This document shows, one piece after another, positions 2,463-62,058 of a stretch of DNA of 64,000 bases. The notes under the pieces were generated by a model, which did not search any database, had not been told where the DNA came from, and saw only the letters and a list, made by a program, of their open reading frames with translations. A program made the translations under genes and the position numbers. The DNA comes from Panopea generosa (Eukaryota; Mollusca; Bivalvia; Adapedonta; Hiatellidae), in NCBI GenBank assembly GCA_029582155.1, contig CM055911.1:24443514-24507513 (forward strand), given 5' to 3'. Numbering within the stretch: the stretch's first letter is position 1; every line of letters begins with the position of its first letter.

Positions 2463-2640
2463 ACATGTTCAAAATTTCACAGGCATCAATGCATTGTTTT
2501 TGTTAGAATGTTGCATACTACTAGATTATTGATAAAACAATTGATAGGCAAACATATAATTTCAAAAAAGTGCATGTTTGAAAAACATGTTTAACTCCAA
2601 CAGCCAAGAGATGCACACTATACATATGGATCTGTGTGTT

Positions 2641-3288
2641 CACCATCAGCAGATAGCCTAGTGTAGCGTTGTAATTCACCATCAGCAGATAGCCTAGTGT
2701 AGTGTTGTAATTCACCATCAGCAGATAGCCTAGTGTTGCGTTGTAATTCACCATCAGCAGATAGCCTAGTGTAGTGTTGTAATTTACCATCAGCAGATAG
2801 CCTAGTGTTGCGTTGTAATTCACTATCAGCAGATAGCCTAGTGTAGTGTTGTAATTCACCATCAGCAGATAGCCTAGTGTAGCGTTGTAATTTACCATCA
2901 GCAGATAGCCTAGTGTTGCGTTGTAATTCACTATCAGCAGATAGCCTAGTGTAGTGTTGTAATTCACCATCAGCAGATAGCCTGGTGTAGCGTTGTAATT
3001 CACCATCAGCAGATAGCCTAGTGTAGCGCTGTAATTCACCGTCAGCAGATAGCCTAGTGTAGCGCTGTAATTCACCATCAGCAGATAGCCTAGTGTAGCG
3101 CTGTAATTCACCATCAGCAGATAGCCTGGTGTAGAGTTGTAATTCACCATCAGCAGATAGCCTGGTGTAGCGTTGTAATTCACCATCAGCAGATAGCCTA
3201 GTGTAGCGCTGTAATTCACCGTCAGCAGATAGTCTAGTGTAGCGCTGTAATTCACCATCAGCAGATAGCCTAGTGTAGCGCTGTAATT
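2641..3288. repeat. 36-bp minisatellite, 18 units (copy A)
   Basis: Exactly 648 bp, 18 units of 36 bp, each around cagcagatagcctagtgt. Because 36 is a multiple of three, long open frames result on the minus strand (a 12-residue repeat, MVNYNATLGYLL); I regard them as by-products and not a gene. Units differ by a few substitutions (cgtt/cgct, cacc/cact). Confidence 0.97.
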
Positions 3289-12319: not shown

Positions 12320-12575
12320 TGTGGCTGATGTTTTCAAAACCAAATTGTCCTCTTAGTCGCGAATGCTAAATGTATATGCGCAGTTGTGCATACATCCATA
12401 TTTTAAAATACCACTTAGCCTAACTGCATCCTGTATGAAAATATGAACCGGATTTCGCATGATGGCAGTTTCAAGTAGTTGTTGTTTTTAAATACCGAGG
12501 GAATGTACCAAAATATAGTAATTGGTGTATTTGTATATGTAAAACGAGGTCATATGTTAGATTCAAACAGGATTA

Positions 12576-12795: not shown

Positions 12796-12976
12796 AGTAC
12801 ATGTTCAAAATTTCACAGGCATCAATTCATTGCTTTTGTTAGAATGTTGCATACTACTAGATTATTGATAAAACAATTGATTGGCAAACATATAATTTCA
12901 AAAAAGTGCTTGTTTGAAAAAGAAGTTTAACTCCAACTGCCAAGAGATGCACACTTTACACATGGATCTGTGTGTT

Positions 12977-13552
12977 CACCGTCAGCAGATAGCCTAGTGT
13001 AGCGCTGTAATTCACCGTCAGCAGATAGTCTGGTGTAGCGCTGTAATTCACTATCAGCAGATAGCCTGGTGTAGCGCTGTAATTCACCGTCAGCAGATAG
13101 CCTGGTGTAGCGCTGTAATTCACCATCAGCAGATAGCCTGGTGTAGCGCTGTAATTCACCGTCAGCAGATAGCCTGGTGTAGCGCTGTAATTCACCATCA
13201 GCAGATAGCCTGGTGTAGCGCTGTAATTCACCATCAGCAGATAGCCTAGTGTAGCGCTGTAATTCACCATCAGCAGATAGCATAGTGTAGCGTTGTAATT
13301 CACCATCAGCAGATAGCCTGGTGTAGCGCTGTAATTCACCATCAGCAGATAGCCTGGTGTAGCGCTGTAATTCACCATAAGCAGATATCCTAGTGTAGCG
13401 CTGTAATTCACCGTCAGCAGATAGCCTAGTGTAGCGCTGTAATTCACCGTCAGCAGATAGCCTGGTGTTGCGTTGTAATTCACTATCAGCAGATAGCCTA
13501 GTGTAGCGCTGTAATTCATCATCAGCAGATAGCCAAGTGTAGCGCTGTAATT
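12977..13552. repeat. 36-bp minisatellite, 16 units (copy B)
   Basis: Exactly 576 bp, 16 units of the same 36-bp repeat at the orthologous site. Most units here carry the cgct variant, unlike copy A, where cgtt variants dominate the left half. Two minus-strand frames are open throughout. Confidence 0.97.
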
Positions 13553-15310
13553 TGATAGTCTCCTCTTACAAATATGTACTAGCATGACAGTAAAAGTTTA
13601 ACCGCAGAGCAGATCATATGATAAGTTGCACGGACCGCCTTTATATAATAAGACTTCATGTAAACAAACAGTTTGATTTTAAGGGAATCCACTCTTTCAT
13701 CGAAATATATAAAAATGGTTGTTGTTATCGCCCTTACCTAGACACGGACTGTAAGGGACGCCTATCAGTAGCCCTTTATAATGGTATCAATGGCAAATTA
13801 TGCATAATGTGTTTAATCAAATACTATTTACTTGTGTATGACTATACATCAATGTGCAAATCCTGATAAAAATCAGTGAATTATATTTTATATAATATAT
13901 ACCCGCCGCAAAAGGATAGACCATGACATTTTCAAGGAAGAATCTCAATATTCGAGGGAATCATACAACACAGAGACACATTCTTTTTAATGGCTGGTCA
14001 ACAACTTTGTTATACTGCCATACATTTCCTACCTCTGAATATGTAGGTAAGCAGTCAGCGACATGCAGATATAAGTTGTATTTAGTACTGATTACGTGCG
14101 CCGTTATATAACTGAAATGCTGTTGGAAAAGGCGAAACATTCAGATCTTAATTATCCATTACATTGTAGGATTTGGAATTGAATATTGATATTGATATGT
14201 TTCGGACTGTATTGTCAACAAAATGGCGTCTTATAGAACCCATATTTAATACATCCGTTTTATTTATTTATTTCGTTTCTTTATTATATTCTGCGGTCAT
14301 AGCGTGATTTTAGCCTAAATTGATATATTTCGCACAGACTATTTTTTTTTTTTTTCAAAATAGGAAACATATTCTCAAAAAAGTGATTCTCAATCCTGAA
14401 TTCCCGTCATTTATAACGAATTGTTCGAAAATGGAATACCACCTAAGTCGGATCTAGGCCGCTTCAGACGTGTTGCGTATTTTATGTTAACACAGAATTG
14501 ATGGTGCTGGAGTAATATCACTTCCGATTCATCGCTCGGTGTTTTCCGTATAACTTGGCTGTCGTAGGTAAAATTCCGAACTACCAAGTTCCGACTTGTC
14601 CGAATATACAAATGACTTTGATTGGTCATGGTAAAATGACGATTTATTCTCTTTCGTTATTGAGGTTATCTGAAAATGTACCATTTATTTCTGAGTAATG
14701 TGATAAGATATCAAGTACATTCGTGTGCATTTATCATTTAATTTATAATACTCGTTGGCTAAAATGGTATAATGCTATGCAGAGCCTCGCATAATGTATG
14801 TTTTACAAACTCGTTTAATAAAGTCAGTAATAAATGGGCACTCATATAAGATTCTCTTGATATATCGTAAACAAACGCATTAGGATAGTCTGTGAATTTT
14901 TCTTGAACGCGTTCTTGTCTTGGTTTCCAAGTGACCCGTTTTAGTCATTTTAGTAAATGAATGCCAGAAAGGACCTTTGGTTTGCCTTAGTTTTGTATAT
15001 GAAAACCATTTTCTGATGTTAATTACAAGTAACAGATATGTTTTAAGAACCGTATAATATTTTGAGAATTTCAAGCTGTTTGTTAATAGATAAATGGCAG
15101 TTTCAATATCACACACTTTTCATTGTTTTAATTTCCATTGCCAGTTCATGAATAACGTTCATAATTGATATATGTTTATTTGTATGGCTAGGGAGTGTGC
15201 GTAATGCGAATATGTATTGGTCTTAATTACATGTTACCATACATTTTGTGTAATACACTTTCAAGCGTGTGTTATTGTTTCATTTCTTTGTTTTGTTTTA
15301 AATTTATTTT

Positions 15311-20842: not shown

Positions 20843-22573
20843 TTAGAAGAAGGATCCAATACGAATGACAACACAACTGGCATTATTAGATGCCTGTACA
20901 TTTGTGCCTGCCCCGTACGGAGAGTGGATATGTACGAGGTGTCCATTTCTTGAAGGGTTAGGACGCCATGTCCGTATCACTCCCTCTGTATTGTAGGCGT
21001 ATACTACCCCACCAAACGGTTCGAGTGTACTTTGCGAGTTTCCATACCCGGGAAAACGATAGCCCTTATTTGGACCGTCATTGGCCTGCACGTACAGCGA
21101 TAATAAATCGCTATCTAATATTGGCCTATTGTTTGAGAAGTTCAAAATATTCAGAGTACCTTTAAATATGGTTGTTTTTGCTATTAGGGAATCTTGTGAC
21201 CAGGCTAGGACTCTAATTTCTCCGTTCTTAGCGGCTAAGTAGCCATAAAACTTCATTCCCCATCCATCATTTGAGCCAAATAATCTGTAATAAAATACGT
21301 TTCCATCGTTTATTTGATTTTTATTGAGATATGAAGTCCACACCCTGACAGACTTATCGTTATATCCCCACGTGACGCCGCCTCCGTTTAGATAGTCTCG
21401 ATGGAATATCGATGATCCTACACCCTCAGAGATCAGATAATGATCCGATGTTTTACAACGTATCTGTACGTTGACAAGGGCCGGATAACCGTGTATACCA
21501 TGTTTTATATCATTAAAAGACAACGACCTGTTAGTTACATCCAACTTGAGCCAATCTGACTTAAAGTCTGGAGTAATAATATCCTTTGGTCCCCACACTT
21601 GAACACGAACCAATGCCTCGCCAGAGGTTTGATGATTGTCACCAATTCTTCTCGAGTCTTCTTCCCCGGTATGGATAACAGATCCGGTAGCTCCATTGTT
21701 GTTTTTCTTTGGTGCAAACAAACGAACAAGTCTTTCGTTATACAAATAAACAATGCCACCATATGTCCTCCCCGTGTCATCGTCACTTTGGAATGCAGAG
21801 TCTCCGTTAAAAATCCAGCCGGCATTAGGACCAGATGTTGGTTTTATTTGAACTCGAACTTTATACGGAATAGTTCCTAGCCCATGAGCAATGGAAAGTT
21901 CGGAAAGTTTGGCATCTTGTGACTTCATCAAAGTCCACTTACTAACGAAACTAGGATTTCCAAGATTCTGTTGTTTAAGTCGTTTTTCAATTTCATGAAG
22001 TGATTGTGCCAGGTTTGTTACTGAACCATTTATATTTTCAATATCATTTTCATTTTTATTGAGTCGTCCTTCTGCGGAATGAAATGAAGCAGGTAACTCA
22101 GTACATATTTCGGTCATCTCGTTTTGCATGTTTTTCACACCAGTCACAGTTGAATTGAGCTCCTTAATCCTCCGTTCATTAGTCACAGAGCGTATCTTCT
22201 CTGCTTTAAAGGCTTCTTCTAAAATCGTATATCTTGTAAAGTTATTTGATATCTCCCCGGCCACTGGTCGGATCTTTTTTGAATTCGCTGTATTTAAACA
22301 TGAACACGATTGTAATTGCTGATCTTGCAACGCAAGTTTTTCAGCGAGTGCTTGTACCTCGGATGTCATTTTCTGGTCTTGTGTTGCCAGTTTTTCACTG
22401 AGCACTTGTATCTGAGATGTTATTTCGATCCAAACTTTTTGTTTAATCATGTCAATATCGGCACGGTTAAGTTTCTGCGTATTGCTCAGTTTGCGCAACA
22501 TAGCGTGAACGTTTGTATTACACTCCGTGTATTGAATCACAAAGTAAAATATTAAATACAGAATAATCTTCAT
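20843..22573 (-). CDS. Secreted coiled-coil protein with three beta-rich repeats, copy C
   Basis: Third intact paralogue, 576 codons, at a constant offset of 10,254 from copy B. It shares the signal peptide starting at the ATG at 22,573, the glutamine- and lysine-rich stalk with N-glycosylation sequons, and three C-terminal repeats. It ends VVIRIGSFF like copy B, but in the stalk (residues equivalent to SAEGRLNKNEN) it agrees with copy A. A candidate AATAAA lies on the minus strand at 20,500-20,495. The retained frame in three copies that have drifted at many sites suggests functional constraint. I cannot assign a family name; a lectin-like or matrix role is only a possibility. Confidence 0.85.
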   Translation of the reverse strand: MKIILYLIFYFVIQYTECNTNVHAMLRKLSNTQKLNRADIDMIKQKVWIEITSQIQVLSEKLATQDQKMTSEVQALAEKLALQDQQLQSCSCLNTANSKKIRPVAGEISNNFTRYTILEEAFKAEKIRSVTNERRIKELNSTVTGVKNMQNEMTEICTELPASFHSAEGRLNKNENDIENINGSVTNLAQSLHEIEKRLKQQNLGNPSFVSKWTLMKSQDAKLSELSIAHGLGTIPYKVRVQIKPTSGPNAGWIFNGDSAFQSDDDTGRTYGGIVYLYNERLVRLFAPKKNNNGATGSVIHTGEEDSRRIGDNHQTSGEALVRVQVWGPKDIITPDFKSDWLKLDVTNRSLSFNDIKHGIHGYPALVNVQIRCKTSDHYLISEGVGSSIFHRDYLNGGGVTWGYNDKSVRVWTSYLNKNQINDGNVFYYRLFGSNDGWGMKFYGYLAAKNGEIRVLAWSQDSLIAKTTIFKGTLNILNFSNNRPILDSDLLSLYVQANDGPNKGYRFPGYGNSQSTLEPFGGVVYAYNTEGVIRTWRPNPSRNGHLVHIHSPYGAGTNVQASNNASCVVIRIGSFF

Positions 22574-22829
22574 TGTGGCTGATGTTTTCAAAACCAAATT
22601 GTCCTCTTAGTCGCGAATGCTAAATGTATATGCGCAGTTGTGTATACATCCATATTTTAAAATACCACTTAGCCTAACTGCATCCTGTATGAAAATATGA
22701 ACCGGATTTCGCATGATGGCAGTTTCAAGTAGTTGTTGTTTTTAAATACCGAGGGAATGTACCAAAATATAGTAATTGGTGTATTTGTATATGTAAAACG
22801 AGGTCATATGTTAGATTCAAACAGGATTA

Positions 22830-30623: not shown

Positions 30624-31856
30624 TCAATTATAAGAAGGATCCAATACGATAACAACACAACTGGCATTATTAGATGCCTGCACGTTTGTGCCTGCCCCGT
30701 ACAGAGAGTGGATATGTACGAGGTGTCCATTTCTTGAAGGGTTAGGACGCCATGTCCGTATCACTCCCTCTGTGTTGTAGGCGTATACTACTCCACCAAA
30801 CGGTTCGAATATACTTTGCGAGTTTCCATATCCGGGAAAACGATAGCCCTTATTTAGACCGTCATTGGCCTGCACGTACAGCGATACTAAATCGTTATTT
30901 AATGTTGGGTTATTGTTTGAGAAGTTCAAAATATTCAGAGTACCTTTAAATATGGTTGTGTTTGCTATTAGGGAATCTTGTGACCAGGCTAGGACTCTAA
31001 TTTCTCCGTTCTTAGCGGCTAAGTAGTCATAAAACTGCATTCCCCATCCATCATTTAAACCAAGTAATCTGTGGTAAGTTACTTTTCCATCGTTTATTTG
31101 AGTTTATTTGAAATATGAAGTCCACACCCTGACAGACTTATCGTTATATCCCCACGTGACGCCGCCTCCGTTTAGATAGTCTCGATGAAACATCGACGAT
31201 CCTACACCCTCAGAGATCAGATAATGATCCGATGTTTTACAACGTATCTGTACGTTGACAAGGGCCGGATAACCGTGTATACCATGTTGTATATCATTAA
31301 AAGACAACGACCTGTTAGTTACATCCAACTTGAGCCAATCTGACTTAAAGTCTGGAGTAATAATATCCTTTGGTCCCCACACTTGAACACGAACCAATGC
31401 CTCGCCAGAGGTTTGATGATTGTCACCAATTCTTCTCGAGTGTTCCTCCCCGGTATGGATAACAGCTCCGGTAGCTCCATTGTTGTATTTGTTTGGTGCG
31501 AACAAACGAACAAGTCTTTCGTTATACAAATAAACAATACCACCATATGTCCTCCCCGTGTCGTCGTCACTTTGGAATGCAGAGTCTCCGTTGAAAATCC
31601 AGCCGGCATTTGGACCAGATGTCGGTTTTATTTAAACTCGAACTTTATACGGAATAGTTCCTAGTCCATGAACAATGGAAAGTTTGGACAGTTTGGCATC
31701 TTGTGACTTCATCAAAGTCCACCCACTAACGAAACTCGGATTTTCAAGATGTTGTTGTTTAAGTCGTTTTTCAATTTCATGAAGTGATTGTGCCAGGTAC
31801 GTTAATGAACCATTTATACTTTCAATATCATTTTCATTTTTAATGAGTAGTTTATA
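30624..31856 (-). pseudogene. 5'-deleted copy D of the secreted repeat-protein gene
   Basis: Homologous to the three intact genes but broken in three ways. First, a deletion of about 780 bp (equivalent to A about 1,485-2,267) removes the start codon, signal peptide, the first half of the stalk and the proximal promoter, and fuses the stalk directly to the upstream SINE. Second, a CAA to TAA change at about 31,634 interrupts the first C-terminal repeat (IPYKVRV then stop). Third, a small change at about 31,105 makes a stop after WTSYFK in the second repeat. The C-terminal end (VIVLDPSYN) has the same frame as copy A, so copy D belongs to the A subtype. Not expected to make protein. Confidence 0.93.
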
Positions 31857-45200: not shown

Positions 45201-45504
45201 TGATCATTTAATTTTTTAATGACATGTAGATAATATTTTTGAAGTTGTGATCAACAGAATTAATCAAACTTGCCATTTATCTTTTTAAAATACGATTCAT
45301 TTCTGTTATCATTTGATATTGTTTTATAAAATTATATCATCATAATTTCACTTATAACAATATATACAAAGTATTACATTCAATCAATCAATAGTGTTCT
45401 CTTCTACTACACAACGATAGGTAAAGCAATAAAACACAGCGCCGTGCTAGTACCGTTAAACTTTTGTAAATATTCTCTAATGTAGTTTCCATGAGGATCC
45501 TCAA

Positions 45505-45700
45505 GAGCGAGTGGTCTAAGTTACCTTGTCAAGACCACTAGCATGAACCTCTCACAGCTAATGTCGTAGGTTCGAGTCCCACTCGCTCCAAAATCTTTAA
45601 CTGAGAAAGTTTGTCAGTAACTTGCGGAATGACGATGGTTCTGCTCAGATTCAATCCGAGGTCTTCAACCATCAACAAATCTGGATATGCAACCAAATAT
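45505..45700 (+). mobile_element. tRNA-derived SINE with intact acceptor-stem pairing
   Basis: The first 85 nt resemble a class II tRNA: GAGCGAG (45,505-45,511) pairs perfectly with CTCGCTC (45,582-45,588), an A-box-like GTGGTCTAAG follows, and a B box GGTTCGAGTCC is present. I cannot draw a convincing anticodon stem. The downstream body (gtttgtcagtaacttgcgga) resembles mollusc SINE bodies, so this is a SINE and not a functional tRNA gene. The right end is approximate and no target-site duplication was seen. Confidence 0.65.
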
Positions 45701-46593: not shown

Positions 46594-46779
46594 TGAGTGA
46601 ACCAAACCACTGTTTCCTAGGATTTACCAGTACTCGAGCACACCCCATCTCTTCAAGTAACTGATAACTTTCCCACTTGAATCAGTGGGGAGAGACGAAT
46701 GATAATGAGACACAATGTCGTATATCAATCAACACGGAGACTGTTGTCGGGCGGGGGATTCGAACTCACGACCCCTGGA
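46594..46779 (-). mobile_element. 5'-truncated tRNA-derived SINE with perfect 15-bp TSD
   Basis: 186 bp between identical 15-bp flanks tagattaaactataa (46,579-46,593 and 46,780-46,794). Read on the minus strand it starts just before the B box (GTGAGTTCGAATCC), so the A-box half of the tRNA head is missing, and it ends CAGTGGTTTGGTTCACTCA. The perfect duplication indicates a recent insertion. Confidence 0.9.
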
Positions 46780-46794
46780 TAGATTAAACTATAA

Positions 46795-48384
46795 ACATAT
46801 TAATATAGAATAACGGTACTTTACAAAAGTAATTACAATAGATTAATTGTTAATCTTTTCCTCCTGGCTATTAACAAACATCACAAAATAATACACAGGA
46901 AAAATGAGAAAAACATATGTTTAAATCATCATTTAAGGTAGTTCGCGACGTCTCAATTGGATTTTTTTTATATCTGGCGTAATTTATCAAAAATATGTAC
47001 AATTGATCCATGAAGACTCAGCTTCGTTAAACCTTTCATTTTTTCAATATAGTACCGCAGTTTCTCGTTAATAGCGCCTCCTGGCAGTATTTTTCGGACC
47101 ATTTTCGCCGTTTTTCCCTTGTAAAATAAGCAATATTAATTCAAAATTGTTTCTAATAACATTACTCAATTACTTATTTTATTTTCTGTGATAAGATTAT
47201 AAGTTTCATGTAGATAAAATACAATTTGTGTTACCTTTACACCTAATTATTCTTCGGAGTTGATATAAACGCGGGTTTAAAAACAACAAATTTTGAATAT
47301 TCACAGCTGATTGCGCGAAAAAGCCGGAACGCCACAAACCACCTAAATAACATATACCTCTTTTAGAAATACAGATACATAAAAAACTATCTTTGTTATC
47401 TAATTCTCAAATCTCATTGTTTTCTAAAATGTATTTTGTTAAATGGATTCATTGCAGTTTTAATTAAAATGAACTAATGTACACACATTAAATCTGCCTC
47501 TATGGACATCTAGTGCCTCTAGTCTGGCGTCTGCTGGATACATTAGACACCATTTATTAGCGTATGTAACTTCAGATTCTATAAATATTTTCAAGTGTTA
47601 AATTTTGCGGAGACTGCAGTGTGCCCCTTTAAGGGTAACACATACATGTTTATTTAACTTACTTATGTAAATATACATGTACGGTTTGTTAGAAATTGGC
47701 CCATTTTGACCATCGTAAACCTATTACGTGGTAAATAATAAATTGATCACTTTTCAATGATTGAAATCTAAAAACAAGTTTAAAACAAAGACAAATGATC
47801 TGTTATTCTCAAATAACCCGTTCTACATTTGATCAAGATGAGCAACATGTATTTCCTTAACTGACATATTAAACACATTTAATTACATGTATCTTCTTTA
47901 TGGTGCGTTATTTAATACAGTTTTGTCCGCAGCACTATTTTCCATTTGGAATCTTCTTTCTTTCTATTAAACTTGTAGATGAACTATATTTGTGAATGTT
48001 CCTCCATCTGTTAAAACATAAACACCAGATTAGTTTTAACTATCCTTAACCAAATTTAAACTTGAATAGTCATAACACAAAGTATTATACAATTGCTAAT
48101 TAATCGAGTTTTAACAACTGTAGCAGAACTCATTTCTCTGAACTTACTCATTGTTTTATTATATAAATAAAACATTATGTTTGTGCTAATTCATTTAACA
48201 GCGATTGCGTAGTTAGCTCAGAGCTAATATGGATAGCTTATTTAGTCATTATTTTTTAGTAGAACCAGAATGTTGTTTATTGAAATGTCGTCTGTTCAAG
48301 CCGAGAACCAATTTAATGTTAATATATAAAGCTATATGCGCGTTACTCGTCTCACTATTAAGCTCCTTGTCCTATAAGATATAC
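46795..48384. other. Intergenic, no gene recognised
   Basis: AT-rich, only short open frames without motifs. It lies beyond the 3' end of the ankyrin gene and may include its 3' UTR. Confidence 0.5.
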
Positions 48385-49603
48385 TCAACATTTTAACTGT
48401 CCTCTTTCTGCAGCATAATGAGCAGCAGTGAAGTCATTATTGTCTTTTTTCTGAATAAAGCTCGTATGATTATAACATAAATATTCCACAAATTCAAATT
48501 CTATGATGCACTTTGTAATACAGTGACAACAGTCGAATCCGCCGTCATCCGATCTACTTCCCGGCCCATAAACTAGGCTAAACATTCTAGTTGTCGAACG
48601 TCGCCTGCAAAATGAGCAGCAGTTTTTATTTTTCTTATACATTAAGGACAGATAGTTCTTACATAAACTAAACATTTTAAATGTCCTCTCTCTGCAGTAT
48701 AATGAGCAGCAGTGAAGTCATTATTATCTTTCTTATGAATTAAGGACGGATAGTTCTTACACAGATATTTAACTATTTCCAACTGTCCATTATATGATGC
48801 ACAATGTAATACAGTATAACAAGCATCGTTCTTTATCATGGGGACTATTCCTTGTCCTAAAAGATAAACTAAACATTTTAATTATCCAACGTCAGCTGAT
48901 AAATAAACAGCAGTGAAGCTACTTTTATTTGTCTTATGAATGATTATATGATGCACAATGTAATTCAGAATTACCAGCATAGTTTGTTGCCATCGGGTCT
49001 ACTCCTTGTTTTATAAGATAAACTAAACATTTTAAATGTCCTCTCTCTCTGCAACATAATAAGCAGTAGTGAAGTCATTATTATCTTTCTTATGAATTAA
49101 GGACGGATATTTCTCACACAGATATTTAACAACTTTCAGCTATCCATTATATGATGCACAATGTAATTCAGTATTACCAGCATCGGTCATTGCCATGGGG
49201 TATATTCCTTGTTCTAAAAGATGAATGAAACACGTTAAATGTCCTCTCACTGCAGCATAATGAGCAGCCGTGAAACCATTCTTGTCTTTTGTCTTAATTA
49301 AGCTCGTATGATTATTACATAGATATTCCACAACTTCCAGTTGTCCATTATGTGATGCAGTATGTAATACAGTGACACAAGTCGAATTAACCGTCACCCG
49401 ATCTGCGTTTTGTTCTATAAGACAAACTAAACATTCTAAATGTCCGACCTTAGCTGCTTCATGAGCAGCAGTGGCGCCATCATTAGTTTCCCTGTGAATT
49501 AAGCTGGGAAAGGTATTGCATATAAATTTTACAACATTTAATTTTCCACACTGTGATGCTGTATGTAAAACAGTTTCACCTGCAGAAGTAGTCGCCATTG
49601 GAT
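48385..49603 (-). pseudogene. Decayed ankyrin-repeat tail downstream of the HEPN-nSTAND-ANK gene
   Basis: Ankyrin repeats continue past the stop of the upstream gene but in shifted frames. Frame 49,140-49,640 holds several good repeats (TVLHTASHNGQLEVVEYLC type) and ends at a CAA to TAG change in a conserved NGQLEVV context. Further fragments at 48,642-48,839 and 48,385-48,675 and between them are broken by indels. Because repeats closest to the gene are best preserved, this looks like a former C-terminal extension now decaying as 3' UTR. An assembly indel at about 49,612 could explain the first break but not the later ones. Confidence 0.82.
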
Positions 49604-52600
49604 TTACTCCTTTCCTATTCCTGTAAGATACTTTAAACACTCTAAATGTCCGTCATCAGCTGCTTCATGAGCAGCAGTGGCGCCATCATTAGTTTCCCTG
49701 TGAATTAAGCTGGGATAGGTATTGCATATAAATTTTACAACATTTAATTGTCCACACTGTGATGCTGTATGTAAAACAGTTTCACCTCCAAAAGTAGTCG
49801 CCATTGGATTAACTCCTTTTCTTATAAGATACTTTAAACACTCTAAATGTCCGGCCTCAGCTGCTTCATGAGCAGCAGTGGCGCGATTATTAGTATCCCT
49901 GTCAATTAAGCTGGGATAGGTTTTGCATATAAATTTTACAACATTTAATTGTCCACACTGTGATGCTGTATGTAAAACAGTTTCACCTGCAGAAGAAGTC
50001 GCCATTGGATTAACTCCTTTTCCTATAAGACACTTTAAACACTCTAAATGTCCACTCACTGCAGCATAATGAGCAGCCGTGAAACCATCCATGTCTTTTG
50101 TCGTAATTAAGCTCGTATGATTATTACATAGATATTCCACAACTTCCAGTTGTCCATTATGAGATGCAGTATGTAATACAGTGACACAAGTCAAATTAGC
50201 CGTCACCCGATCTGCGTTTTGTTCTATAAGACAAACTAAACATTCTAAATGTCCGGCCTCAGCTGCTTCATGAGCAGCAGTGGCGCCATCATTAGTTTCC
50301 CTGTCAATTAAGCTGGGATAGGTATTACATATAAATTTTACAACATTTAATTTTCCATACTGTGATGCTGTATGTAAAACAGTTTCACCTCCAAAAGTAG
50401 TCGCCATTGGATTAACTCCTTTTCTTATAAGATACTTTAAACACTCTAAATGTCCGGCCTCAGCTGCTTCATGAGCAGCAGTGGCGCGATTATTAGTTTC
50501 CCTGTCAATTAAGCTGGGATAGGTTTTGCATATAAATTTTACAACATTTAATTGTCCACACTGTGATGCTGTATGTAAAACAGTTTCACCTGCAGAAGAA
50601 GTCGCCATTGGATTAACTCCTTTTCCTATAAGATACTTTAAACACTCTAAATGTCCACTCACTGCAGCATAATGAGCAGCCGTGAAACCATTCTTGTCTT
50701 TTGTCTTAATTAAGCTCGTATGATTATTACATAGATATTCCACAACTTCCAGTTGTCCTTTATGTGATGCAGTATGTAATACAGTGACACAAGTCAAATT
50801 AGCCGTCACCCGAACTGCGTTTTGTTCTATAAGACAAACTAAACATTCTAAATGTCCGGCCTCAGCTGCTTTATGAGCAGCAGTGGTGCCATTATTAGTT
50901 TCCCTGTGAATTAAGCTGAGATAGGTATTACATATAAATTTTACAACATTTAATTGTCCACACTGTGATGCTGTATGTAAAACAGTTTCACCTGCAGAAG
51001 TAGTCGCCAAAGGATTAACTCCTTTTCCTATAAGACACTTTAAACACTCTAAATGTCCAGCCTCAGCTGCTTCATGACCAGCAGTGCGGTTACAATTATC
51101 TTTCATCAGAGTTAAACTAGTATACTTCTCGCATAGATAATTCACAACTTCCAACCGTCCATTATAAGATGCCACATGTAATACAGTGCTACCACTAGAA
51201 TTAGTTGCCGTTATATCTAATCCGATATCTATGATATAATCTACACATTCACAACTCCCTCCTATTGCAGCAATATGTAAACTAGTGTTATTTAGATTAT
51301 CTTTCTTGTGAACCAAACTATAATGATTATCACAGAGATATTGGACAACTTTAAAACGTCTACATGCGAGAGCAAAATGTAATATATTTACCCCATTGAT
51401 ATGGGTTTCCTCTGGATCTATTCCTTGTTTTATAAGATATCTGACAGATTTTAATCTCTCTGAAAACGGTGTCAAATCAGTATCGTTATATCTGTGGTTA
51501 ATTAAAACATGATTGAGACAATCGAACTGATTAATATCTTTACACGTAACGTCAGAACCTGCGTTTACCAACAGTTTCAACATATCAAAAGTAGAATCTG
51601 ATGCAGCGAAATGAATAGGTCTTTGTTGCTTATCAATAGTTTCTGCCGCGAGTAATTCTAATTTCTCATAACGTTCACATCGTCTTAGTATGCATTTAGC
51701 CATTGCAATATCACTATAACGGCAAGCTAAATGAAGTAAATTCCCACCATTTCGCGGATTTCGAGCTCTGATATTACCACCAGCATTCAGAAGCATCTCA
51801 AGAACCTCAACGTTCTTTCCTTTTACAGCGAAATACATACTTACTGTTGTTATTTCGATTTTGTAACTTATGAAGTATTTCACTATTTCACCTTTCCCAC
51901 ATAGACATGCTCTATGCATAGCGGTGTTGGTTTGTTCTTTCCTTTTGTTTATGTTTATTAACGATGGGGCCTCGTCAATTTTTTTTTCTATCTCCTCTAT
52001 GATTTCAAGGCACCCACATCCAGCAAAATATACTACAAGCGATTTTCCAGTGTCATCTTCCTGATAATATACTTCCGGTGATATCACCCTTACAGCATTT
52101 TTAATAAAATCTGTGTGTTTCCAGAGTGATGATCCTGCGATGCATTTTATATCTGTTGTCGATTTTACTGACAGAACCGTTTCTTTAAAACGTTCCAATA
52201 ACAGTTGATATTGTAACGCACCTGTTGTAGCTGTCTTTGGATCAACTAAAAATGATTCACTGAATGTTACAAGGGTATTTATGGGACAAAACTGTATGAG
52301 AATCTCTGGCATAATGATCTTTGCTGCCATAAAAGTAGCTTCAAGGATTGTATCATGAACAAACGCGTAACATGTAACATCTTTAATTTTAAGATACGTT
52401 TGTGACATAGATTGTGCTGCCTTTTCCAATTCGTATTGATCCAGAATAATTCCCCCGAAATATTTTTTTATTTTCTCAATACACTGCGTCTCATTCTTAC
52501 TGAGGCGTGATATTTTGAATGTGTCATCACAAAACAGTGTCATAATTAAACAAACAAAACTTGCAGTATCTTTTTCAGGCATGCATAGTATATCTTTCTT

Positions 52601-53271
52601 TATAACTTCCACGGGTTTCGTAAAGAAATCTAAAACATTTTGACCTTTCATGACACGACACAGTACAGGGAACCCGACTCCATAGATGGTTTTATTGATA
52701 ACTTTATCTATATCTAAATTTGAAATATCAACGTCTAAGTGTTCAGCATAGCTTTTAAACATGATTCGTTTTTCGTCGTCATTCATTGTAGACACATCTA
52801 AATCTAAATTCCAAATACTACTGAAAATGTTGTCAACACTTTCATTTGCACATTTGGTTTTTATATTCTTTCTTATAGTGATAACTAAAAACACTTTATC
52901 GGAATTGGTGTAAGATATTAATGTGTTAATGTATCGATTCCATTCGGACACTTTTGTTGTGTCTATGTTTATTCTACCTAAAAAATCATCAAACATTAGT
53001 AGATATTTATTTGAAATATCAATAACTTCTTCAACTTCATTTACAGTTGGATCACAAAATACCAAAGTTGTTAAATCGGGAACAGAGTCAGACAGTTCCT
53101 TTAAAACGTTCTTTGCAATGTGGGATTTTCCAACTCCAGGTTTACCTTGCAGCACCAATACATGTTTGTCCAGAAGTAGATTTGCTGCTATCTGAGTTAG
53201 TCTTGTTTTGTGGCCCATATGTAGTTCACCTAAGTCACGCATGTGATTCGCTAGTATTGATTTGGTTTCCG
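49604..53271 (-). CDS. nSTAND3-like NTPase plus ankyrin array (last exon of HEPN-nSTAND-ANK gene)
   Basis: This exon starts at 53,271 after the acceptor TTTTTAG, completing an Ala codon; the open frame upstream of this begins with a TTG and is intron. It opens with AETKSILANH and a P-loop, GKPGVGKS, then a Walker B-like YLLMFDDF about 45 residues later. This spacing and the FDDFLG context match novel STAND NTPase 3 domains. A helical region follows (to about residue 410 of this exon), then about 24 ankyrin repeats of 33-34 residues to the end. The last third is built of almost identical blocks of 67 codons. The frame ends by a 5-bp length change at about 49,612 relative to sister repeats. By family knowledge such proteins use ankyrins for ligand recognition and the NTPase as an oligomerisation switch. 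A cytoplasmic immune sensor role is inferred. Confidence 0.88.
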
Positions 53272-53885
53272 CTAAAAACGTGTACAATACAAAATGTCAA
53301 TAACTACGAATTGTTCAATAAGTATACTGTAATATAAATATCAACAATGATCTTCTTTTAGTATGAAAATTGGATTTCATTTATTATGTCTGGTGTATCT
53401 CCTCATAATTAACAGTTTTAGTATTATGAAAATAACGAAATCAGTGTGTTAACGCATCGTCAAGATGGCGTTAATATTGACCATGATATCACAAATGATG
53501 AAATGGTATTTATATTACTTTTGCAATCGATCTAAGGAAACAGATCAAATAATGTAAAATAGCTAGAACGTACACTGTAAGCATTGAAAGCACCGTTTTG
53601 AGTTTTCTTCGAATGATCAAAAATATAGTTTAGATCTAACTTAATGTCATGGAGAGACGCCCCGGGTTTTACAGATATTAAACTAGCATTTTGTTATATT
53701 TTTCACCCAAAACTATAAAAAGTGTGTTTTTAATCCTTAGATAGAGATTTTATTTAACTAAGGGAATTCGTTTGAACAATCTTATCTACCATGGGACGTC
53801 GACATTTTACATACAGTACTTAACAAAATATACAGAAAAATGAATTATTATGATAAAACACTAATAAATCTTAGATATGTCTTAC

Positions 53886-53987
53886 CGATTTTTCTCTTCA
53901 GTTTTCGTTGATCAATAGTTTGATATTGTTGGTTTTCAATTGACGTGTTTATCTTCTGCTGCAAGTGTTTCATGGTTTGAACGTCAC
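53886..53987 (-). CDS. 102-bp linker exon of HEPN-nSTAND-ANK gene
   Basis: Acceptor ATGATTTAG before 53,987 and donor CG|GTAAG after 53,886. Enters and leaves in phase 1, matching both exon 1 and the large exon. It encodes about 34 residues rich in Q and K (DVQTMKHLQQKINTSIENQQ), probably an extension of the coiled coil between HEPN and NTPase domains. Confidence 0.75.
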
Positions 53988-55023
53988 CTAAATCATATGA
54001 AAGCATAGGAGATTTGATGTTACAAGAATAAATACAAAAACTTAAACCAATCTTTGACTGTCTGGTCCGCGTGCAATTTAAGAACTCGAAACTGAACTTA
54101 GTCTAATGCCTTAAAGATGTATAAGGTACCAGGAAGGTTAGTCGCACAAGTTGACGTGTTCCAAAATGTTTCAAAATTCTATTTTCGATGAAGTTGTGGT
54201 TATTTTAGGGTTGAGGCCTGCAGGGCGAACGCGTAAGTTCACCATTGCGTGGAATGCACTTTTGTCTTCTGTCATCGTTCCACAGTGCAGTTAAATATTT
54301 TAAGTTTTCTATCATGTCTAATGCCTAAATGAACAACATAATCGGAATGTTCGATATAAAATGTCGATGTATTCAGAAAGCAATAATGAAGGGCTACTGT
54401 GTTTACCAAAATGATAAAACACACGATATATTCATGTTTGCGTAAAAATATTATGTTTTTGTGTAAATATACACACATTTTTATAGGTTAATAGAATGGA
54501 AATGTCAGCTGCAAAGGTTGAATTGCAACATTTGAGGTTAAACACGTTTGCTCCAACATCGAATTTTCTAATTCTTGTGAAGCAATCGTTAACGAAGATT
54601 AAGTACAGAAAATGAAGAGCACACCTCTTTGACGGGTACCTCGCTCTATTTTTATTGGTCGATGAGCTGTTTCATTATAGCCTATATCTATAATAACCCT
54701 TGGTATGAATTCGGTATAGTTCGCCACATTTTCCCTATTATTCCAAGCTTTGCAAACGTGTAAGACAGCCCACTGTGCCATACAGTGTCACCTGTTACTA
54801 TAAAAATCGCGGCATGGACATTACTGCAAAGCTCCATGCTGAAATACACAATTTCTAATAAATTGAACGCTGTTGTGCAATTGAGATTTTCCCTAAAACC
54901 ATGCTGCTTGATAAAAACTGCACAGATATAATTACTTTATGTTGTTACTGTTATACTTTTTACTTGTATACACGTTTTATACTTTTCAGACTTGGTAGAT
55001 TTATTAACGTTTTAACTGTATAC
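53988..55023. other. Intron sequence
   Basis: No exon or mobile element recognised. A minus-strand open frame of 60 codons at 54,599-54,781 has no splice context or recognised motif. Confidence 0.5.
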
Positions 55024-55165
55024 CTTTGAGATTGAAGAAACAATGCCATTGAATAGGTAAAATCTTCAGACGAGCGTTAAAAATGTCAACACGTTTGTCT
55101 TTAAGATAATCAAGCGTCGCTTGATCAAGACTATCACTCATTGATGGGTCAATATACCAGACTAC
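55024..55165 (-). other. Possible alternative exon
   Basis: 142 bp bounded by a good acceptor (TGTTCTTAG) and donor (CAAAG|GTATAC), with one clean frame beginning VVWYIDPSMSDSLDQATLDY. It enters in phase 0 and leaves in phase 1, so it can precede the 102-bp exon but cannot directly follow exon 1 (phase 1), where it would meet a stop after four residues. It may belong to an alternative transcript, follow an unseen exon, or be a relic. Confidence 0.45.
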
Positions 55166-55970
55166 CTAAGAACAAACAGGTTAACGGTATGCTGCCAAAA
55201 TGAGATTACCAACGCGTAGAACGCGTAGAAAAAAGTATTATTGTTTTTATTTTTGTAAAAGTCCTTTAGTTAAGTATTTTTGTTATAGTGATTGTTTCAT
55301 AACAACCAAAGTTCCCTATGAAACCACTTTTGAAAGGTTATACCACAGAAGCTGCGTTCACTAATATTGTTTTATTTTACTATATAATGAAATTTTATTT
55401 TTCATATTGTGTGCGCGCATAAAGACAAATGAAGAATTAGTATAATCATAGGTCTATCTCTAATAACACTTCTTCTAAGGTGTTATCTTGTTGAATTAGA
55501 AAAAAACGTTCATATATACTTTAATAACAAATAAGAATAGTCAGGATACAATAAAATAAAGAAAATGTCATTCAAATCATTTTCCTCAGGAACGTAGATA
55601 TAAAATGAAAGAATCATTCCGTATTAAATTTTCGACCACCAGGCCTTTATAAATAATGAACAAATTGTAACAGGCTGTAACTTCACGTCATCATAACAAA
55701 CCAATATTGTCAAATTGGATGTAACATATGTGCATTAATGAGTTATCATTTCTTTGACAAGGATCCAGTGGCCGAACATTTTTTAATTTGAAAATAAAAT
55801 AGACAAAATGACAAGATAATATAAATTCATGAAATGACCTTGTCAAGAACGTAATTGACAGTTTCATATATTTATATGTATTATGTCATTGTTATAAAGA
55901 TTTTACCCTTATTTACTAGAGGGTATTTGTGTACTGTCTTTACAATACATGTATATTAAAATACCCATAC
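55166..55970. other. Intron sequence
   Basis: AT-rich; begins (minus) with the donor GTATGG of exon 1. I looked for but did not find a further exon that would reconcile the phases. Confidence 0.5.
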
Positions 55971-56727
55971 CTTTTGTATCTTCTAACACCCGTCTCACTG
56001 ACGTAACTTCTGTTTTCAATTCCTCCTTTAGCTCTCCCATCTTCTCCTTCAAACCTCCCATCTTCATCCCCAAACCTCCCATCTTCTCCCCCAGACTTCC
56101 TATCTTCTCCTCCAAACCTCCCATCTTCTCCCCCAGCCCTACTATCATCTCCTCCACTTGTCTATCTGATCGGTACCATTCCCTCAGTGTTTCTACGACT
56201 TTGTTTGAAGACAGTGCCTCGTGCTCTACTGAAGCAATCATATCTACTATAACAGTCTGGCATTGTGTATCTGTCAACAATGCGGATATACGCGTTAGTG
56301 TGGAGGAAATATCTGCCCAGGTTGTCTGGAATGTTGACTCAGTCATAGTCAGGTGTACAGTATGTCCATGGACGTTGTTTCTCAACTCCCGTACATCTTT
56401 TATGGCGTTTTTTTGTGTCTTATTTAATGTGAGACAGCTAGTTAGTATTACGGTAACTAGAGTTATGTCCCAATGTTCCAAATTTGTAGGACTGCCATTT
56501 TTTGGAAACATGAGAAGGTACTGTGTGTCGTTTATTGTTTTTCTGGCTTTAAGACTAAAAATTGTTTTTTTCTTAGCTGCAAAGAATGCACCTAGGTCTG
56601 TAAATGATCCATTGTTCACAGTTTCCTGCAGGAGGAGTTGTTTACAGAAATATCCTCCGCCATCTAAGGTCAACTTACAACATCGGAAGCAGTTGTCTTG
56701 TTCCTGCCACGCAGGTGATCCCGCCAT
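55971..56727 (-). CDS. DZIP3-like HEPN domain and coiled coil (first coding exon)
   Basis: It begins at an ATG at 56,727 in good context (AAACATGGCG); a TATTACAG just upstream suggests a 5' UTR intron. Residues 10-155 match the DZIP3-like HEPN family: conserved NGSPTNLEHWDITLVTVIL, then RNNVHGH (R116 to H122), which fits the Rx4-6H signature of HEPN ribonucleases, then a W-x-DI motif. Residues of about 190-245 form a strikingly regular heptad array (EKMGGLEEKIGSLGEKMGGL), a coiled coil. The frame leaves this exon in phase 1 at AAAG|GTATGG and splices in frame to the 102-bp exon and the nSTAND3-ankyrin exon, giving 1,508 codons in total. RNA cleavage activity is possible from the motif but unproven; many animal members act in scaffolding. 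Confidence 0.85.
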
Positions 56728-57213
56728 GTTTATGTCTTAACGAGTTTCTGTAATATCAAAAGAAAGGGCAAATGATAATTTTACCTCATACGCATTAAAC
56801 AGCTGTTAACCAATTCACCGTGGGGAAACAAAGAATGAAACGTCATCACGCAGATATTCAAATGAGCTGTCCACACCGAGATATGGCGACAATCGTGTCT
56901 TTCCTAATGTTTAAACAATCGACATGCGATAAAGAGCCCGAATCCGTCTGCTGATAATATAGAATTAATGTTAGATTTGCTGCACCATGCCTACTCTCTT
57001 GCCGAAAACGAAGAAAGTTTACAAAGCTGACATGAGTACTTGCACATCTAAGTCATAGAGGTGACGTTCACATTCCCATTCTATCAAGTTATTACCCATT
57101 TGAGGTTGGAAAATGACACTTATATATTATAAATGTTGGTTATTTTTTGTTTTGAAAAAACGTTTGGAATTATTTATAGGAAAATTAAAAAAAATTATGA
57201 GACATTCCACACC

Positions 57214-58100: not shown

Positions 58101-58592
58101 TGGTTAATAAGATAAATAATAGCCTAAGGTTATCTCGATGTATAGTTGACAGTAAGTTTCTGGGCGGGATTTTAAACTCCGTAATTAAAATACTGACCAA
58201 TAGAAAAGTAAAAATGAATTGACCAATGATCGAATAGTTGTTTATTCAGTGAGAGACAGATTTAAGTAGAGACAGGTCATTCAGTTGGAACTTAGATGCG
58301 AATCTGGTGACATGTCAGTTTAGACTAGGTTAAGTTTAAACGAATGAAAGCGAGTTTAAAATGTTAGCTTGTGACTTTGAACTTATGCGGAGTATATAAA
58401 TATGTGAATAAAATTACTTATATAAAACCACGCTGTTGAGTCGATTATGCCACATGGGTATAATAAATGATGCGCGATTCCAGGACTGGATTGGATTAAC
58501 ACAACGCAGAGTATAGGTCACGTATACGACATGGAGATGAGGGAAAAACCGGTGAGTGTGTTTATGTGATTTATTTTCTTACGAGTACGAAA

Positions 58593-59440
58593 ATGACAGA
58601 CCAAAATGTTGCTTCTGTATTTAAAAACTTAGCAGATCAATTCGCACAAGTAAATACTTATGTCAGGGTTAAGGGAATTACAAAATTCATAAAACATTTT
58701 GATGGAGATTCAAAACAATTTAAAACTTGGGTAAAAAATATTGAAAAATATGCAATTTTTACAAAAACAGATGAAAGTCAAATCAAACTAATAGCATTAC
58801 AAGCCAGTAATGGGGTAGTAAGCGATTTTATTCAAAGATGGATAATTACTTATCCTAGTAAAACTTGGTCACAATTGAAAAATGGACATGCAACGCGAAA
58901 CGCCGAGGTAAAAGTCTCTCATAATTAATAAATGTTTCTAGGTATAATTTTGCAAAAACAAAATGAAAATGTACAAAATTATGCAGAAAGATTGCTAGAT
59001 TCGGGTCAAGATGCATTCAACGAATATCAGGGAGATTTACAATTGATTGAAAAAATGTAAGTTGGATATTTCATAAATGGGTTGGTTTATGATTATATGA
59101 AAATGAGGTTAATGAGAGAAAATCACGTAACTCTCCAAGCAGCGGTTAAATTCAGCATTGATAGAACAAAATCTTAGGAAAAAATTAGAATTAAGAACAA
59201 GTCAAAATGCAAGAATTAATTTTCAAAAGAGACATCAGATAAATCTTTTAAATGACAAACAAAACCAGGTTATCAGTAAAAAATCCACAGGTTTCAAACA
59301 AAGCAATGCTCAAGGCAAATTCACATGTTGGAAATGTAGGAAGAAGGGTCATTTTAAGCGACAATGCAGATCAAAATCTAGGGTCAATCAAAATAAAATA
59401 TTCTTCAGGAAAACTAGTATGCTCTTCATATTATCGAGCT
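58593..59440 (+). pseudogene. gag: gag remnant with CCHC zinc knuckle
   Basis: ATG at 58,593 begins MTDQNVASVFKNLADQF; the first 112 codons include a capsid-like stretch (HFDGDSKQFKTWVKNIEKYA). A stop at 58,926 and shifted frames after it break the gene; capsid-like residues resume (NYAERLLDSGQDAFNEY, YFINGLVYDYMKMRLMREN). A single CX2CX4HX4C knuckle, CWKCRKKGHFKRQC, lies at 59,326-59,367 in a different frame from the start. The knuckle would bind the element's RNA. Not functional as it stands. Confidence 0.8.
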
Positions 59441-59812
59441 GATATGAAGAGAGATAAAATTCCTACATACAATATTGCAATCGCGGGAAGCCCATGTTCA
59501 TGCATTTTGAAAATTAATGGAATAAGAATTAGATCTTTAGTGGATTCTGGAGCGGAAATTTCATTAATACATAGAAGACTTTATCAATCTTTGCGCAATG
59601 TACCGAAACTTTGCAAGAAATTAATCGCATTACAATCTGTAAATGGAGGAGCATTGTCAGTAGATGGTTATTTTGAATTGGATTTTGAATTAGGAGGTAA
59701 AAAATTTAGTCATACCTTTTTTGTGGTACCAAACATGAATCGAAGAATGATATTAGGTAGAGATTTTTTGACTGAGAAAAAGGTTAGAGTTTATTTTAAT
59801 CTAAATTTGTAA
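59400..59812 (+). pseudogene. Aspartic protease region of the gypsy element
   Basis: Frame 59,252-59,812, meaningful from about 59,400. The active-site triad region reads LVDSGAEISLI (D-S-G at 59,543-59,551), followed by a MILGRDFL motif near the end, typical of retroelement proteases. The stop at 59,810 separates it from the following pol sequence, which continues in the same frame, so it is a simple nonsense break. Confidence 0.78.
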
Positions 59813-59836
59813 AGTATTGAAGGAATTTACGTAAAA

Positions 59837-60550
59837 ATGGAAGAGGATCTTCATATCTCTTCAATAGTAAGACTTAAATCTACCAACATTTTAAAACCAC
59901 AAACAATAAATGTTGTAAATCGAAAATTAGAATATAATCCAGATTTGCAAACGCGTTGTGATTATGAAACAAGGCCGTTTGAAACAGGATTTGTTAGTTC
60001 AAAACCATGTTTAGTAGTTTTAAATTCAGTACTTCAATTAAATAATGATCATACGTTTCTGGTAATGCTTATTAATAATTCACATAAAACTCTTAAGCTA
60101 AGAAAGGGTTGTGTGATTGCAAAAGTTGAAAAACTAAAGCGTGCTAAATTTACTTCAGTAAATGAGATAACATGTCAGTCAGAGGTGACAACTGAAAAGT
60201 TCAATCGTAAGGATATTACGTCACCTAGCGAACATTTAGACGACATGTATAGCTTTTTACAGGAAAATTCAGAATTATTTGCTAAAACAGATTTAGATTG
60301 AGGTAGGGCAATTGGACAAAAAATGACATTAGATACAGGAAATCATCCTCTGATTAAATCAAGACCGTATCGCACCAAGATAAACAATAGGAAACATATA
60401 CATAAAGCAGTAAGTGACATGCTCGAAGCTAAAGTTATACAAAGATCAAACTCAGCATGGAGTTCTCCGATAGTTTTAGTAGATAAGAAAGATGGTACGA
60501 AACGATTATGTGTTGATTATAGAAACATTAATCAAATATTTAAGCTATAG
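59837..60550 (+). pseudogene. Linker and N-terminal reverse transcriptase remnant
   Basis: Continues in the protease frame: a linker to 60,301, a TGA stop, then the RT start (LDTGNHPLIKSRPYRT, ending VDKKDGTKRLCVDYRNINQ), the standard Ty3/gypsy RT fingers. The frame is lost at 60,550 before the palm domain. Confidence 0.8.
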
Positions 60551-61390
60551 CTTATCCAATCCCGTTAATAGATGATATATTGTCGTTGTTACATAACACC
60601 GCTTTTGTATGTCATAAAGGCGTGTATGAATCTAATGTCGCTCCTTTTGGGTTACGTTCGAGCCCTGCTGTGTTTATGGAGTTAATGAATAAGGTATTAG
60701 AGATTAATTTGAAGTTAATTATCTAAATTTGCTAATCAGTGAACAAGGTATTCGCCAAGACCGAAGAAAGGTCAAAGCATTTAAAACACTAAAAGGGCCA
60801 AGGTCTGTTAGAGAAATAAGATCCTTTATTGGAATGGTAGGATATTATTGACGTTTTTTTTTCAAGGGTTTTCAAAGATAGCAAATCCGCTAATAGAATT
60901 GACAAAGAAGTTTGCAAGATTTTAGTGGGATCAAATCTGTCAAAATGCTTTTGAAATAATAAAAGAACGTCTTGGTTCACTTCCACTGCTTGAACATCCA
61001 AATCCATCTAAAATATATGTTTTACATACCGACGCCTCTAATTATGCGATAGGAAGTGTGTTATCCCAACCAGTAGATGAAGTATTTCGGATTTAGATAG
61101 TAGTAATCTGTTGCCGATATATCTCTTATCACACAAATAAAGTAAAACACAACAGAAATGGCAGACATTGTTATAGAATGATTTGCCATTTATTTTTCAC
61201 TGTCAAAGTTAGATCATCATCTATATTTTGCGATCATCAACCGTTGAAATATGTTTTAGAATCTCCAAATCAAAATAAACAAATACAGCTTTGGTCATTA
61301 GCGATATCAGCATATAACGCAAAGATTGAATTGATCGAAGGTCGTTAAAATGCTTCAGCAGATTTATTATCTAGAATACCAGAATTAGAC
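60550..61390 (+). pseudogene. Reverse transcriptase palm and RNase H remnants with internal deletions
   Basis: A shifted frame gives AYPIPLIDDILSLLHNTAF, then jumps directly to CHKGVYESNVAPFGLRSSPA: the segment with the first catalytic aspartate (LDLxSGY in relatives) is missing. A second deletion after LMNKVLEIN removes the YxDD box. RT thumb and connection residues follow with stops, then RNase H (YVLHTDASNYAIGSVLSQ), and a final NASADLLSRIP. Catalytically dead. Confidence 0.8.
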
Positions 61391-62058
61391 GTGTTACCAG
61401 TAGGTTCTAGTGAGGAGATAACATTAGAAGATGTAAATGACAGGAGTTTTCAGATTAAAACAGTAACAACAAATCAATTGTTAGAACAACGACTAAAATC
61501 ATTTAATTTTGTACATAAAAAATTAGACAAAGTAGAGAAAACGCAACCAAAATGCAACAATGAAATAAGGTCAGAAGTTTTACTTAAAATAGGAGACGCG
61601 GTATATTCTAAAAATTATAAAAAGAGTTCAAAGTTAGATAAAAACTGGAATGCATTTTACAGAATTACTGAAGAAAGATCTCCTGTAACATTCATAATAC
61701 GTAATCAATTAACTGGGTCAACTACAAAAGCACATGCGTCATAATTAATTAAAGTCAATGTTGACGAATGGGTCATTCCAGAGGCTCAAACAAGTCACCG
61801 GACAGTACAGAAACAATATTTTGTTGCACCTCCGGTTAGATCTGACTCAGAAACAGATTCTGAAATCCCAATAGAATCACCGGTAAAGCGTCAAACAAAT
61901 TGGTATAGAAACCAAAGATTAAATTTCAATGATGAAAGTGATATACCATTATTAGAGTTAGCTAAAAGATTAAGAAATCAAAATAAGGTAAATTCTGATA
62001 TTAAATCTGAAGAGTCTGATTTGGCCGATATGTCTTCTGCAATCAGCACAAGCTACCA
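61391..62058 (+). pseudogene. C-terminal pol remnant, integrase core deleted
   Basis: Directly after the RNase H end comes a sequence typical of the C terminus of pol (LLKIGDAVYSKNYKKSSKLD, then NWNAFYRITEERSPVTFI), with no HHCC zinc finger or DDE core between them. A TAA at 61,742 interrupts this frame, which continues as LIKVNVDEWVIPEAQ and an acidic tail to about 62,058. Confidence 0.75.

Follow-up and report, generated by a model that had tools for sequence, protein, structure and literature searches.

A HEPN–nSTAND3–ankyrin gene of Panopea generosa as a candidate intracellular immune sensor

Do three coding segments on the minus strand of a bivalve genome form one gene, and could its product be an innate immune sensor? 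The question is raised by positions 49,604–56,727 of a 64,000-nt stretch of Panopea generosa DNA (GenBank assembly GCA_029582155.1, contig CM055911.1, positions 24,443,514–24,507,513 of the forward strand; hereafter the window). A first-pass annotation had placed here a single protein uniting an RNase-like HEPN domain, a signalling STAND NTPase and ankyrin repeats, and had compared it with STAND defence proteins of bacteria and with NLRs; this tripartite parallel is supported by the profiles and motifs described below. It is reasonably probable that the locus is a single gene for a cytosolic NLR-like sensor, in which ankyrin repeats would detect a ligand, the STAND NTPase would oligomerise and paired HEPN domains would act as an RNase.

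Domains in a single reading frame

Three minus-strand segments of 757, 102 and 3,668 nt, joined at 55971/53987 and 53886/53271 as previously proposed, form a single frame of 1,508 codons plus stop, with both junctions in phase 1. The gene model is frame-consistent across all three segments, which carry the following features.

55971..56727, minus strand: coding exon 1, residues 1–252 and base 1 of codon 253, with ATG, HEPN domain and coiled coil; donor AAAAG/GTATGG
53886..53987, minus strand: proposed exon 2, 102 nt, phase 1-1, 34 residues, coiled-coil-like by eye
49604..53271, minus strand: large exon 3, STAND NTPase and ankyrins, with a frameshift-induced stop at its end
56278..56598, minus strand: HEPN_DZIP3 domain (Pfam PF18738), residues 44–150
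56362..56382, minus strand: RNNVHGH, candidate HEPN RNase active site, R116 to H122, Rx5H
55972..56136, minus strand: heptad-repeat coiled coil, residues ~198–252, from sequence and weak phmmer matches
52745..53209, minus strand: nSTAND3 NTPase domain (Pfam PF20720), residues 308–462
53123..53146, minus strand: Walker A, GKPGVGKS, residues 329–336
52985..53005, minus strand: Walker B, YLLMFDD, residues 376–382
52871..52888, minus strand: sensor-1-like LVITIR, residues 415–420
52664..52675, minus strand: STAND-type GxP motif, GFPV, residues 486–489

Both the HEPN and the STAND profile were matched far above their cut-offs, so that the outcome named as refuting in the first-pass annotation, a lack of significant matches to such profiles, did not occur. 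The DZIP3-like HEPN domain, first suggested from the letters of exon 1, was recovered by Pfam with 59 bits (E 6e-16) in exon 1 alone and 48.7 bits (E 8.8e-13) in the whole protein, against a cut-off of 27. The Rx4-6H motif claimed within it is present as RNNVHGH at residues 116–122, an Rx5H form with a polar N after R. By itself the motif is weak evidence, as R[NDH]x3-5H turns up in 7.8% of 5,000 shuffled versions of residues 1–190 and the protein contains two further such strings elsewhere (positions 298 and 793); its weight therefore rests on the HEPN_DZIP3 profile match around it. A single-sequence structure model of exon 1 (mean predicted local distance difference test score, pLDDT, 46.4; residues 1–134 below 50) places RNNVHGH, at low confidence, in a helix of residues 106–123, and its best-predicted part is the coiled coil (block pLDDT 71–88, residues 201–250). 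Among solved structures, phmmer at E up to 1 returned 11 distinct sequences for exon 1, the best being a coiled-coil chain (E 0.013) and none a recognisable HEPN relative. The PADLOC library, which lists proteins from anti-phage systems both known and candidate, gave weak matches only (best E 0.0071). In IMG/VR, seven stretches matched the exon 1 pattern and none was confirmed, in a single-sequence scan that reaches close relatives only.

The P-loop STAND NTPase of the first-pass annotation is equally well founded, with an nSTAND3 match of 81.7 bits (E 6.2e-23) for the NTPase stretch and 77.4 bits (E 1.2e-21) for the whole protein (cut-off 27.2). GKPGVGKS, YLLMFDD, LVITIR and GFPV follow one another as they should in a STAND protein; LVITIR is the sensor-1-like and GFPV the GxP motif, and with Walker A and Walker B they make up the STAND set. 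NACHT remained below its cut-off of 26.7 (21.7 bits for the fragment, 18 bits for the whole protein), and the whole-protein Pfam scan gave no leucine-rich repeat (LRR) family at E up to 0.1, ankyrins being found instead; on these two counts an NLR sensu stricto was rejected. The best PADLOC match of the NTPase stretch was PDC-S73 (E 2.2e-11), and no model named Avs was among the matches, although whether that library holds Avs5 was left unchecked. Solved structures yielded one sequence, Dicer-like 3 (E 0.11, search at E up to 1). Two pattern matches in IMG/VR and 34 in a prokaryote genome collection gave no confirmed NTPase relative, with the same restriction to close relatives of a single sequence.

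Splice joins and the extent of the gene

The joins 55971/53987 and 53886/53271 are plausible. Splice sites were scored over 56727–53100 with weights taken from a generic textbook consensus, so ranks are rough. The donors of exon 1 and exon 2 rank 2nd and 4th among 202 GT sites, and the full three-exon model is 2nd of 19,403 in-frame models; given such weights, the ranking is support for the three-exon model but not proof. In the models placed 1st and 3rd, the exon 1 donor and exon 3 acceptor are unchanged and the middle exon differs. Their middle exons, at 54681–54624 (top model) and 54917–54791 (third), score like exon 2 and were set aside for a resemblance to a long interspersed nuclear element (LINE), judged by eye. 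Short minus-strand open reading frames (ORFs) in intron 1 (54599–54936) look by eye like a decayed LINE reverse transcriptase; Pfam did not confirm this, returning for the LINE-like stretch just one unrelated row (E 0.25).

Exon 2 itself, 102 nt long, is symmetric in phase (1-1): skipping it would keep the frame, and exon 1 could be spliced directly to exon 3; the ORF surrounding it gave no Pfam match at or above the cut-off. At the 5′ end, the start codon lies within AAACATGG, and an acceptor-like site upstream of it (exon start 56747, generic score 3.25) makes a non-coding first exon further upstream possible.

It is unlikely that the locus instead comprises two adjacent genes, one for an HEPN–coiled-coil protein running from exon 1 through to a stop at 55909 (272 codons) and another for a separate nSTAND3–ankyrin protein. 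Although an in-frame stop does follow exon 1 only 62 nt past the proposed donor, and the exon 3 acceptor is just 25th of 195 by the generic splice score, the segments share a strand and their phases are compatible (757 + 102 + 3,668 nt in frame), a strong donor lies inside the coiled coil, and the exon 3 ORF opens merely 25 nt before the proposed acceptor, with the nSTAND3 match beginning 20 residues in. Pearl oyster is rich in DZIP3-HEPN proteins without NACHT (PMC9646362), which would suit separate genes, but fusion of HEPN to a STAND NTPase is a recurrent published layout (PMC9646362, PMC3710099).

An open frame of 280 aa on the plus strand (55898–56740) lies antisense across all of exon 1. 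It is probably a by-product of the composition of exon 1 and its heptad repeat of 21 bp; it is on the minus strand that the HEPN profile matches.

Growth and decay of the ankyrin array

The C-terminal repeats extend through the second half of the frame and, in decayed form, beyond its stop.

49604..51928, minus strand: ankyrin array kept in the ORF, ~23 repeats, residues 735–1508
49682..51087, minus strand: young tandem array of seven 201-bp ankyrin dimers, with a 603-bp higher-order duplication
48360..49603, minus strand: decayed ankyrin tail beyond the ORF, with frameshifts, stops and deletions

Ankyrin families match to the C-terminus (best 380.5 bits, E 3.5e-116), and the count of ~23, estimated from residues about 735–1508 at 33/34 residues each, is close to the 24 put forward earlier. 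Repeat length alternates between 33 and 34 residues, giving a DNA period of 201 bp. Identity is highest, at 96–99%, between dimers spaced by 603 bp (u1149/u1350, 99.0%; u1216/u1417, 98.0%; u1082/u1283, 96.0%), and this near-identity points to recent growth of the array by a 603-bp, six-ankyrin duplication. In the 21 pairs among the seven dimers, the ratio of nonsynonymous to synonymous substitution rates (dN/dS) is 0.55–0.84 for 10 distant pairs and 0.86–2.12 for 10 of the 11 close ones, the remaining close pair being undefined; with so few pairs and possible gene conversion, dN/dS cannot separate relaxed constraint from diversification.

The opposite process is visible at the 3′ end. The first-pass annotation ended the gene at 49604 and overlooked both the recent amplification and the decayed tail; the stop there is frameshift-induced, caused by five extra bases near 49613–49617 relative to the other repeats, and ankyrin DNA runs on to about 48360. 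Over 49680–48360 (1,321 nt) there are eight profile matches, interrupted by four frameshifting indels and five stops in consensus phase, and one additional out-of-phase junction. The part from 49652 to 49140 is still open in another frame (ankyrin match E 1.5e-34), so that the truncation looks younger than the decay further on; the 5-nt insertion may also be an assembly error. An AATAAA at 48281–48276 could be an old poly(A) signal, which in AT-rich DNA is a weak hint. The ankyrin array thus undergoes turnover, with repeats gained within it and lost from its end.

Exon 3, by comparison, has no frame disruption in 3,668 nt. At the density of the tail (the nine disruptions and the out-of-phase junction in 1,321 nt), the 2,184 nt of exon 3 that precede the young array should contain ~16 disruptions, and none is present; this expectation holds if the tail is neutral and as old as the exon, and openness was itself the criterion by which the ORF had been chosen. 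The contrast between intact exon and disrupted tail suggests that the coding part has been maintained by selection while the end of the array was shed. The same numbers bear on the possibility that the whole gene is decaying, its truncated C-terminus marking a recent pseudogene or null allele. The 5-nt insertion that truncates the array, the nine disruptions around and behind it and the dN/dS values of 0.86–2.12 in close repeat pairs would be accounted for in that way, but 4.5 kb of joined coding sequence without a stop or frameshift would not, nor would the missing ~16 disruptions if exon 3 were equally free to decay, and general decay of the gene appears doubtful.

Relatives, proposed mechanism and genomic surroundings

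The architecture had been called largely undescribed, which is too strong: fusions of DZIP3-type HEPN with ankyrin and NACHT were tabulated in 2013 (PMC3710099), and >50 HEPN–NACHT proteins were reported in 2022 (PMC9646362). Anantharaman et al. (2013) list animal DZIP3/hRUL138 HEPN domains fused to TPR, Zn-ribbon, RING, ankyrin, CARD, NACHT, DEATH and LRR, describe DZIP3-HEPN expansions in Nematostella, oyster and Capsaspora, and mention bacterial proteins with an N-terminal HEPN domain and a STAND NTPase (PMC3710099). HEPN RNases act through Rx4-6H according to the same paper, RNase L KEN being among them. Takeuchi et al. (2022) found >200 NACHT genes in the haploid pearl oyster genome, >50 of them carrying a DZIP3-like HEPN at the N-terminus; of 202 HEPN proteins, 194 had Rx4-6H, most commonly as Rx4H (131 proteins; PMC9646362). 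In nine of the 15 species of a cnidarian survey, NACHT was joined to HEPN more often than to any other non-LRR partner (PMC8260672); an Aplysia survey lists a single NACHT-LRR protein that also has Death-like and HEPN domains, and a mussel expression study has table rows naming a HEPN gene and a NACHT gene. Kaur et al. (2021) describe TRADD-N expansions in Crassostrea, with STAND NTPases, HEPN RNases and ankyrins among the modules of the variable parts (PMC8195603). Both RNase activity and a part in immunity are put forward as predictions for DZIP3-like HEPN proteins in the available literature.

The Panopea gene shares its order of N-terminal DZIP3-like HEPN, central STAND NTPase and C-terminal repeats with the HEPN–NACHT–repeat proteins that are numerous in pearl oyster and anthozoans (PMC9646362, PMC8260672), and fits this published class of candidate immune sensors expanded in bivalves. 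It differs from the pearl oyster proteins in its NTPase, which is nSTAND3 (81.7 bits) rather than NACHT (21.7 bits against 26.7), and in its ankyrins, where LRR, TPR and WD40 are given for pearl oyster and ‘ankyrin’ is absent from the main text (PMC9646362). Ankyrin and NACHT fusions and an oyster expansion are likewise found in the DZIP3-HEPN family of PMC3710099, although the text available neither names nSTAND3 nor spells out this exact architecture. With the TRADD-N proteins it has STAND, HEPN, ankyrins and bivalve-specific expansions in common, but those are built on a DED–TRADD-N core (PMC8195603) and no such domain was found here at E up to 0.1. RNase L also combines an HEPN-type (KEN) RNase with ankyrin repeats, KEN being tabulated beside kinase and ankyrin repeats (PMC3710099). 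Its HEPN family is nonetheless a different one, and no kinase or KEN family was found here at E up to 0.1. In RNase L the ankyrins sense 2-5A, a pseudokinase takes the place of the STAND NTPase and the domain order is opposite.

A likeness in layout is also offered by Avs5 (AVAST type 5), a bacterial anti-jumbo-phage protein with an NTPase annotated as PF20720, the family found here, and an effector–nSTAND3–repeat order (Sir2–nSTAND3–repeat); a closed state is predicted in which the repeats fold back onto the ATPase, and there is a structural resemblance to human SAMD9 (PMC12931631). Avs5 has a Sir2-like effector and TPR/Sel1/PPR repeats (PMC12931631), whereas the Panopea protein has HEPN and ankyrins and no Sir2 match at E up to 0.1. 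The combination of nSTAND3, HEPN and ankyrins in one animal protein was not found among the papers listed in the literature searched, which left out most subscription papers as well as the architectures in protein databases; the term nSTAND3 occurs there in two papers, the one on Avs5 and one on a mosquito virome. Databases contain many bivalve proteins of this kind.

HEPN_DZIP3 and nSTAND3 matches above their cut-offs, the ordered STAND motifs and the in-frame join were counted in favour of a single-gene sensor, for which the following mechanism is proposed. The C-terminal ankyrin array would bind a pathogen or damage ligand, freeing the nSTAND3 NTPase for ADP-to-ATP exchange and oligomerisation; the coiled coil would then gather the N-terminal HEPN domains, and paired HEPN domains may act as an RNase cutting viral or cellular RNA, with a halt of translation or death of the infected cell as the outcome. 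If true, an animal protein would use the switch NTPase family of Avs5 with an HEPN RNase as effector, and the intracellular immunity of invertebrates would be linked to STAND defence in prokaryotes directly and in a way open to testing.

Several points weigh against this proposal. The splice joins are predicted from sequence alone, the two acceptors are only 15th and 25th among 195 AG sites by the generic score, and the choice of exon 2 is not unique, a different middle exon being placed on top. RNNVHGH is Rx5H, which is within the allowed range, where Rx4H is the commonest form in pearl oyster (131 proteins). The structure models, made with no alignment, are too poor for a test of fold (mean pLDDT 46.4 for exon 1 and 34.2 for 611 residues of exon 3). 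Finally, dN/dS near 1 in the close ankyrin dimers (0.86–2.12) is compatible with relaxed constraint.

A more specific and clearly tentative extension treats the gene as the animal counterpart of the Avs5 design, with the nSTAND3 switch kept, an HEPN RNase replacing Sir2 and fast-turnover ankyrins reading the pathogen; 603-bp duplications would add repeats and 3′ frameshifts shed old ones, so that a single mutational step might alter specificity. Since the array combines new repeats that are nearly identical with an old end in decay, turnover of the sensor could be measured between haplotypes. The class is already in print, and this locus alone opens no new kind of system.

A purely regulatory protein, in which HEPN would be an adaptor that binds RNA or protein, as in an analogy to the DZIP3 ubiquitin ligase, and the NTPase a scaffold switch, is improbable: the family does take its name from DZIP3 and RING fusions are tabulated for it, HEPN domains that lack the motif are predicted non-catalytic RNA binders (PMC3710099) and RNase activity of DZIP3-like members is stated as a prediction in the available literature, but Rx4-6H is intact here and the protein has no RING match at E up to 0.1.

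Elsewhere in the window, two stretches (45500–45600 and 46730–46770) contain what look by eye like tRNA-derived promoter boxes and are possible remnants of short interspersed nuclear elements; ARAGORN (tRNA) and Rfam scans of the whole window found nothing, these stretches included. Upstream of the HEPN–STAND–ankyrin gene lies a broken retroelement with interrupted ORFs (58500–61744, plus strand), in which an aspartyl protease (RVP) match was found at 59252–59812 (E 1e-9). Four copies of another gene are spaced ~10 kb apart on the minus strand (261–2027, 10589–12352, 20843–22606 and 30624–31631), the fourth being incomplete and split into two ORFs. No Pfam family was matched above cut-off by two full copies or by either piece of the fourth. 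The product, ~588 aa long, is hydrophobic at its N-terminus and contains a coiled coil, and 300-nt stretches at the 3′ end are 95–99% identical among copies. Within the 10-kb repeated unit, arrays of a 36-bp tandem repeat (2495–3406 and about 12867–13600) are open in two frames.

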